Positions 15,594 to 25,764 of a stretch of DNA of 64,000 bases are shown piece after piece (position 1 is the stretch's first letter; each line of letters starts with the position of its first letter). The stretch spans positions 1,922,001 to 1,986,000 of the forward strand of contig NZ_CP158367.1 of the NCBI RefSeq assembly GCF_040267685.1. Direction: 5' to 3'. Position numbers and translations under genes: made by a program. Under the pieces are notes generated by a model. The model ran no database searches. It saw only the letters and a list, made by a program, of their open reading frames with translations, and was not told the DNA's origin. The DNA is from Proteinivorax tanatarense. Its GTDB lineage: Bacteria; Bacillota; Proteinivoracia; Proteinivoracales; Proteinivoracaceae.

Positions 15594-15755
15594 TTGGTCA
15601 AAAAAGAAAATTCAGTTAGAAAAGTAATATGTGCTGCATCGGAAGCCTTAACTATGATAGAAGAGGGTGTAAGCACTGAAGAAGCCGTGGAAAAAGTAAG
15701 TAAGGAATATCAAGTTAACCCCAAAGAAGTTATAGAATTTATCCAAACTGATTAA
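15594..15755 (+). CDS. Small protein of 53 residues, unknown
   Basis: From a TTG at 15594, 9 bases after AGGGGGT, the plus strand encodes 53 residues starting MVKKENSVRKVICAASEAL. It is helical and acidic in the second half, with STEEAVEKVSKEYQVNPKEVIEFI resembling a small helix-turn-helix or UBA-like fold. A strong terminator follows at once, which supports a real gene. Function unknown. Confidence 0.55.
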   Translation: MVKKENSVRKVICAASEALTMIEEGVSTEEAVEKVSKEYQVNPKEVIEFIQTD

Positions 15756-15801
15756 AACCATAAAAATGCAGACCACAAAAGGTCTGCTTTTTTATGGTTT
15801 T
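15755..15801 (+). terminator. Terminator after the 53-residue protein
   Basis: GCAGACC and GGTCTGC form the core stem; outer bases AAACCATAAAAA and TTTTTTATGGTTT extend it. T6 follows the core. Confidence 0.85.
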
Positions 15802-15849
15802 AACTATTTAATTGATAAAATTACTCCTTAACACCTGAATAGATTTAGG

Positions 15850-16147
15850 TCAAAACATTATTTACCACGAAAACGTCGATATTTTACTCATTCTGCTGGG
15901 ACTGAGATCTGGACATTTGAAACTTGATTTGATGCTGGGTCTGTGAACCTCTATGGCATAAAAGTAAAGTTTGGCTTAGTGTAATTTCTATAATTATCAT
16001 ACTACGTACAGAGATTTTAGAGGATATAATTAACATAATAATTATCCATATTTTTTACTGACCAAGCATGTAGCTTATTTGGAAAAAAGGATTTCGTCCC
16101 AGCATGTAGCTAATTTATACGTTTTCGTGGCCAATTAAGGCTTTTGA
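15850..16147. repeat. Long palindromic repeat unit 1 of 3
   Basis: The outer arms begin TCAAAA and then CCACGAAAACGT (15865) and end ACGTTTTCGTGG (16130) ..TTTTGA. Inside each arm are two copies of a TGCTGGGAC-like motif in inverted orientation: CTGCTGGGAC near 15893 and GATGCTGGGTC near 15931 on the left; GACCAAGCATG near 16060 and GTCCCAGCATG near 16097 on the right. Further in, CCTCTA pairs with TAGAGG. The whole unit could fold back on itself. No gene is seen in it. Confidence 0.85.
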
Positions 16148-16178
16148 ATTAGTATATGTAGATATCTTGAGTGGAAGG

Positions 16179-16477
16179 TCAAAACATTTATTAGCCACGA
16201 AAACGTCGATACTATGCTCATTCTGCTGGGACTGAGATCTAGACATTTGAAACTTGATTTGATGCTGGGTCTGTGAACCTCTATGGCATAAAAGTAAAGT
16301 TTGGCTTGGTGTAATTTCTATAATTATCATACTACGTACAGAGATTTTAGAGGATATAATTAACATAATAATTATCCATATTTTTTACTGACCAAGCATG
16401 TAGCTAGTTTGGAAAAAAGAATTCCGTCCCAGCATGTAGCTTATTTATACGTTTTCGTGGCCAATTAAGGCTTTTGA
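16179..16477. repeat. Long palindromic repeat unit 2 of 3
   Basis: Nearly identical to unit 1 over its full length, 330 bases further on; a few substitutions (for example ACTATG for ATTTTA near 16211). A spacer of 31 bases separates the units. The 83-codon minus-strand frame across this unit has no ribosome site and is not conserved in unit 3. Confidence 0.85.
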
Positions 16478-16507
16478 ATTAGTAGTGTAGATATCTTGAG
16501 TGGAAGG

Positions 16508-16781
16508 TCAAAACATTTATTAGCCACGAAAACGTCGATATTTTGCTCATTCTGCTGGGACTGAGATCTAGACATTTGAAACTTGATTTGATGCTGGGTC
16601 TATTGGTTCTCAAGGTAAAGGTTTAAAATCTATCATTCCAATTGTAGAGTTAATTAAGTAACCCATTATCTAAATAATTATCTGTTCTATTACTGACCAA
16701 GCATGTAGCTAGTTTGAAAAAAGAATTTCGTCCCAGCATGTAGCTAATTTATACGTTTTCGTGGCCAATTAAAGGTTTTTA
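16508..16781. repeat. Long palindromic repeat unit 3 of 3, with a replaced core
   Basis: Both arms match units 1 and 2, but between GATGCTGGGTCT (16580-16601) and TACTGACC (near 16690) the core is different and shorter. The new core reads on the plus strand as the tail of a protein, GSQGKGLKSIIPIVELIK followed by TAA. This suggests that the arms are ends of an element whose interior can differ. Confidence 0.8.
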
Positions 16782-25196: not shown

Positions 25197-25764
25197 ACCT
25201 AAATTCCTTATAGGTAAGATATAAACATACAAATATAACCCTGAAACATAAACATATGAAGTTTCAATTCCTCATAGGTAAGATAATAACTTCTAATGCA
25301 TCTAAAGAAGTCTTTACAGCTCTTTGGTTTCAATCCCTTATAGGTAAGATATAAACTTGGGGAAAAGATATTAAAGCATTAGATATAGCTATGTTTCAAT
25401 TCCTTATAGGTAAGATATAAACGGATGAACTTGAAATCGTCAAAAATTCGTCAAAAATTGTTTCAATTCCTTATAGGTAAGATATAAACTGGGGAGATAT
25501 TAACTTGCAGAAATTTTGGGGGGTATTGTTTCAATTCCTTATAGGTAAGATATAAACGATTTCCATCTGAATTTCTTATTGGTTGTGCGGTTAAGAGTTT
25601 CAATTCCTTATAGGTAAGATATAAACAAAGCGGTCATGCTATAGAAGGTAGTTTAGCAGAAACATGTTTCAATTCCTTATAGGTAAGATATAAACTAGAA
25701 ATGCTTTTGATACCTATAAAAAGATAGAAAAATAGTTTCAATTCCTTATAGGTAAGATATAAAC
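25197..25764 (-). CRISPR. CRISPR array, nine 30-bp repeats, eight spacers, no cas genes in the window
   Basis: Repeats start at 25197, 25261, 25327, 25393, 25460, 25528, 25597, 25666 and 25735; the last six are identical, beginning GTTTCAATTCC and ending GATATAAAC. Spacers are 34, 36, 36, 37, 38, 39, 39 and 39 bases. Read on the minus strand the repeat ends ATTGAAAC, the 8-base handle usual for type I-B and III crRNAs. The three left-hand repeats are degraded (first four bases of repeat 1 changed; repeat 2 ends ATAATAAC; repeat 3 has one substitution), as the leader-distal end usually is. So transcription runs right to left. No Cas protein is encoded anywhere in the window. Confidence 0.97.

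Follow-up and report, generated by a model that had tools for sequence, protein, structure and literature searches.

Among the bacterial MITEs and palindromic repeat families, the Correia/NEMIS, RUP and ERIC repeats are small, intergenic and hairpin-forming, and contain no ORF. REPINs and BIMEs are extragenic inverted doublets of hairpins that are present in many copies, and are also found as singlets and as tandem clusters of near-identical copies that include their flanks (PMC3116915, PMC2817692). A cluster of REPINs adjoins the single-copy gene for the enzyme presumed to mobilise them (PMC3116915, PMC2817692). The repeat units described here, from the 3.09 Mb genome of Proteinivorax tanatarense, resemble Correia/NEMIS, RUP and ERIC in being small ORF-less intergenic hairpins, but differ from them in their four-site architecture, their large tandem arrays and their partner, a gene for a GxxExxY protein. 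With REPINs and BIMEs they share the inverted doublets, high copy number, singlets, tandem clusters and a cluster that neighbours a single-copy gene. However, the units are about 190–330 bp, where REPINs are roughly 70–110 bp, and they carry two motif copies per arm. The partner also differs, as it is a PD-(D/E)XK protein of the GxxExxY family here and a Y1 tyrosine transposase in the case of REPINs.

The window, which is the whole 64,000 nt stretch of P. tanatarense DNA that was analysed, contains an array of three tandem imperfect palindromes that include no ORF (Table 1). The three palindromic units and their 330 bp period, described in the original prediction, were recovered by TRF (96% matches, score 1403). 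The cores extend from CCACGAAAACGT to ACGTTTTCGTGG. Those of units 1 and 2 share about 96% identity, while unit 3 has retained both arms and has a different centre. Each unit includes four TGCTGGGWC-type sites, with one pair (TGCTGGGAC and TGCTGGGTC) towards the left end and a mirrored pair towards the right, and the paired sites are 39 bp apart on the left and 35–36 bp apart on the right. Mirrored pairs of sites at each end had been predicted, and the general pattern of the motifs holds, though the inner right site had been misread and is corrected here to TGCTTGGTC. The stretches between the cores, for which 30-base spacers had been proposed, are in fact 63–64 bp, and approximately half of this is further terminal inverted repeat (AAAACATTTATTAG / CCAATTAAGGCTTTT). 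The array starts approximately 60 bp past the terminator of a short ORF on the same strand, and is followed by an RND-type gene that is convergent and has a terminator too. Elsewhere in the window, a CRISPR array with CRISPR-DR2 repeats (Rfam) occupies positions 25261–25764.

Table 1. Features of the palindrome array, in window coordinates
Feature	Position	Strand	Remarks
Intrinsic terminator of short co-oriented ORF (ends 15755)	15752–15803	+	96% complementary inverted repeat, then T-run
Unit 1 left terminal inverted repeat, outer extension TCAAAACATTATTTA	15850–15864	+	
Unit 1, imperfect palindrome CCACGAAAACGT...ACGTTTTCGTGG, 266 bp	15865–16130	+	fold z -3.87
Unit 1 outer left site TGCTGGGAC	15894–15902	+	
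Unit 1 inner left site TGCTGGGTC	15933–15941	+	
Unit 1 inner right site GACCAAGCA	16060–16068	-	
Unit 1 outer right site GTCCCAGCA	16096–16104	-	
64 bp stretch between units 1 and 2, holds outer inverted-repeat extensions of both	16131–16194		
Unit 2, 266 bp; sites at 16224, 16263 (+), 16390, 16426 (-)	16195–16460	+	
63 bp stretch between units 2 and 3	16461–16523		
Unit 3, 241 bp; sites at 16553, 16592 (+), 16695, 16730 (-)	16524–16764	+	fold z -4.71
Unit 3 right terminal inverted repeat, outer extension CCAATTAAAGGTTTTTA	16765–16781	+	

When whole genomes were searched at the DNA level, 75 matches were found in P. tanatarense and 73 in its congener (G004); three genomes from other genera of the same family returned none at the sensitivity of this search. 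An outer-arm profile (E ≤ 0.001) identified 89 arms in P. tanatarense, 152 in the congener and eight in a genome from another genus (G001), and none in ten other genomes of the class. The loci extracted from two of the genomes include 190 arms, which form 60 inward pairs, most of them 184–300 bp, with the others found alone. The family is represented by singles, inverted pairs and arrays; in the largest arrays (L013, L014) the units number about eight to eleven. The copies elsewhere, for which a search had been suggested in the original prediction, are dispersed, and exclude a chance origin of the units. Dispersed copies, differing flanks, solo arms, inverted pairs, arrays and the presence of the family in several genomes all support the earlier suggestion of non-autonomous elements amplified in tandem. 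Exact scans for the arm pattern in GTDB-220 and viral contigs, a set that may lack near relatives, returned no matches, though the pattern does retrieve the known loci. Direct repeats flanking the units were not in excess, and no target duplication, empty site or insertion event of the palindromes was detectable, but the copies are old and lie in arrays. No paper in the literature searched matched the arm sequences. A second repeat (TCATCCTGAGCGCAGCCGAAGGATCTAGCCCACAAGGGCGC) adjoins many of the arms in the congener (L046, L048, L056, L057).

The copies in G001 are diverged and clustered at 165–230 kb, and have the same four-site layout. They have retained TGCTGGGTC, and their terminal stems vary by subfamily yet are self-complementary (TTAGCTCACCGTAAC / GTTACGGTGAGCTAA; TTGGCTACGGAAACG..), such that the pairing of the arms is conserved. 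At position 8 of the site, the outer left and outer right copies agree (A/A or T/T) in 23 of 24 unique units, and the inner right copy always has T. This agreement fits base pairing between the two outer sites, but copying between arms could equally explain it, and it represents few independent events. A further set of about nine TTGGCYACR-containing repeats, spaced 67–69 bp apart and CRISPR-like or minisatellite in appearance, was seen at 185110–185656 in G001 (L113).

The interior of the L014 array contains a gene for a GxxExxY protein (PF13366, E 6e-37; TIGR04256, E 2e-37), a member of the PD-(D/E)XK nuclease superfamily in which the D..ExK active-site pattern is kept. This is the sole match to PF13366 in the P. 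tanatarense genome (1/1), and the sole match in the congener also lies among arms (1/1). Arm-bearing regions with 1 kb margins make up an estimated 2% and 4% of these genomes, respectively. At least four GxxExxY genes are present in the region of G001 that was read, and two of four are in arrays and bracketed by arms. The inverted-repeat scores of these two array-borne genes were 39 and 56, exceeding the control maximum of 37. Flanks of the P. tanatarense and congener genes scored 26 and 18 against a control 99th percentile of 29.25, and contain no clean pair of good arms. GxxExxY is not oriented consistently with respect to the arms. It had been predicted that a larger, transposase-bearing element with matching ends might exist. 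None was found in the loci that were read, and the recurrent partner of the arms is instead the GxxExxY nuclease gene. GxxExxY genes were matched in eight plasmid records and in no phages, and PADLOC returned nothing beyond weak Cas4/REase-like matches. In those parts of the literature that were available to our search GxxExxY is hardly mentioned, one mention being of a domain match beside a CRISPR-associated RT.

A scan of GTDB-220 contigs returned 80 GxxExxY loci from many phyla, 70 of which had enough flanking sequence to be used. The 320 bases on each side of the gene were compared for inverted repeats, and 376 positions elsewhere in these loci served as controls. A flanking inverted repeat scoring above the control 99th percentile was present at 51 of the 70 (mean 38.9 versus 19.6). 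Most of these foreign arms are no more than about 120 nt from the matched region, and many contain a repeated unit, such as GCCACRGAT-NNACACRGAT-NNACACRGAT. In Desulfatirhabdium (L191, 927–4206), GxxExxY has tandem ORF-less palindromes of approximately 105 bp on both sides, with arms GCCACAGAC.. that contain several motif copies each, a layout like that in the window. When a profile of 61 foreign arms was compared with the arms found in Proteinivorax, there was no significant match and only a short TTA..GCCAC start was common. Thus, the link between them is one of architecture and gene, and common descent of the arms is unproven. Further palindromic copies (GGCCACAGATGAACGCAGATGAACACGGAT) were seen on both sides of a GxxExxY gene in Bryobacteraceae (L155, 1609–2489).

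On balance, we favour the explanation that the units are REPIN-like, ORF-less miniatures of a mobile GxxExxY-associated family that are probably moved by the GxxExxY protein. Co-location, the inverted repeats that flank GxxExxY genes and the REPIN-RAYT precedent (PMC3116915) make GxxExxY as mobiliser the simplest mechanism. The protein would be made from one or a few gene-bearing copies, and would recognise or cut the hairpin arms as a cruciform, a single strand or an RNA hairpin. Short copies may then be mobilised in trans, in the way proposed for REPINs and RAYT transposases, and arrays such as that in the window could grow via unequal recombination or repeated insertion. Alternatively, the gene could be a passenger, or its product could tolerate the repeats or exploit them. 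More tentatively, GxxExxY proteins may be the enzymes of widespread, apparently undescribed mobile elements with hairpin ends in many phyla, in which a PD-(D/E)XK nuclease spreads both the elements and their gene-less miniatures, and the window would represent a local burst. We know of no PD-(D/E)XK nuclease of the GxxExxY family that acts as a transposase. GxxExxY is a family with no known function, and these observations give it a testable role and tie it to palindromic repeats. If a PD-(D/E)XK nuclease does move the repeats, this would be an enzymology new to REPIN-like elements. These loci also include a second site-specific pairing of an IS3-family element with a palindrome and an unusual fusion to group II intron fragments.

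In the congener, five of five copies of one IS3-family element (rve, HTH_21) are inserted exactly after GACCCAGCA (L038, L076–L079). Four have clear 3 bp duplications (TCA, GAA, TGT and GAT) and the fifth appears to have recombined. This shows that GACCCAGCA is recognisable to a transposase, and that this transposase is an invader of the arms rather than their owner. IS1397, ISKpn1 and ISPsy8 are IS3-family elements that insert specifically in REP palindromic repeats (PMC1525189). Our element resembles them in being an IS3-family element specific for a dispersed palindromic repeat, but the host, the repeat and the target motif GACCCAGCA are new. The possibility that the arm is the end of a transposase-bearing transposon was rejected, as the sole transposase inside arms is that of this IS3-family element, which its junctions and 3 bp duplications show to be an insertion.

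Ordinary MITEs, with ends derived from a lost conventional DDE transposon and GxxExxY as an unrelated passenger, would also have long terminal inverted repeats and paired internal sites at each end. The narrow size range of the copies (mostly 184–300 bp), the replacement of the centre in some of them, and the solo and degenerate copies that suggest an old family are consistent with such an origin. However, the loci that were read include no transposase bounded by the arms, that of the IS3-family element having its own ends, and no target duplication was detectable at the units, though these are old and lie in arrays. As GxxExxY is found repeatedly with arrays, in one genus as in the other, and is flanked by inverted repeats in other phyla, we consider it unlikely that the units are MITEs of this kind.

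The original prediction had also raised the possibility of a structured RNA, in which case the units would be non-coding RNA or 3′-UTR elements that have been locally duplicated, and are transcribed as a rod that serves as an RNase III substrate, a transcript end or a protein-binding RNA. The arms are self-complementary, the outer site pairs co-vary, and the RNA of whole units folds more strongly than shuffled sequences (z = -3.9 for unit 1 and -4.7 for unit 3), with 0 of 200 shuffles as good. In P. tanatarense, units are nearly always found just 3′ of a gene in the same orientation and of the terminator of that gene. This is in keeping with an RNA, but a position after terminators speaks against routine read-through expression. 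Furthermore, no Rfam family matched over the units, the number of copies and the length of the arrays differ widely, and arms are also found alone. Part of this suggestion, the folding, is borne out by the sequences, but we give little credence to an RNA as the explanation of the units.

A degenerate 5′ domain 1 piece of a class-C group II intron is present 10–97 nt upstream, on the same strand, at 13 of the 17 left-arm loci in P. tanatarense, and right arms in this genome are never beside such a fragment. Most of these fragments begin right after an intrinsic terminator whose gene has the same orientation. A unit follows in seven of the nine domain 1 loci found by DNA search. Insertion after terminators is known for class-C group II introns (review PMC4424553), and the domain 1 5′ ends just past terminators are alike in this respect. 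They differ in that only 5′ fragments are present, fused to palindromes. No RVT_1 gene was found in P. tanatarense or its congener, no domain 5/6 adjoins the arrays, and no domain 1 fragment was detectable at the array in the window. In the congener, no palindrome is beside any of its three introns and no domain 1 is beside its palindromes. The association with domain 1 in the P. tanatarense lineage is likely to be a chimeric element or a nested insertion. An origin of the motif in the group II intron 5′ end, with which it has CCCAGCATGT in common, was rejected because the score is within the range of dinucleotide shuffles, and the palindromes were rejected as intron domain 4 by the congener loci and by the 3′ ends. 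Hence, despite the 13 of 17 and seven of nine associations, it is very improbable that the units are a domain 4-like part of an ORF-less class-C lineage spread to terminators by retromobility, given the missing 3′ domains, the separation of introns and palindromes in the congener, the array in the window and the chance-level similarity of the motif.

RAYTs were rejected as the mobiliser, as Y1_Tnp genes are not linked to the arms: of five Y1_Tnp loci checked, four have no arms nearby, and at the fifth, where a unit lies about 300 bp away, the gene is broken. The broken, RAYT-like gene in the congener (215.1–215.9 kb; L035, 300–1070) is flanked by its own, different REP-like sequence, GAGCACTACAGTGCTCC. 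A sequence similar to GAGCACTACAGTGCTCC is also present at about position 5300 of L051.

Two introns were seen in the course of this work. That of L073 (1112–1767; congener positions 2370611–2371266) is of class C, complete and ORF-less, and is reminiscent of C.te.I1; the congener genome has no RVT_1 gene. In P. tanatarense, at about 2625.1 kb (L072, 1592–1960), the 3′ half of a fossil class-C intron includes an apparent C-terminal part of a maturase together with domains 5/6.
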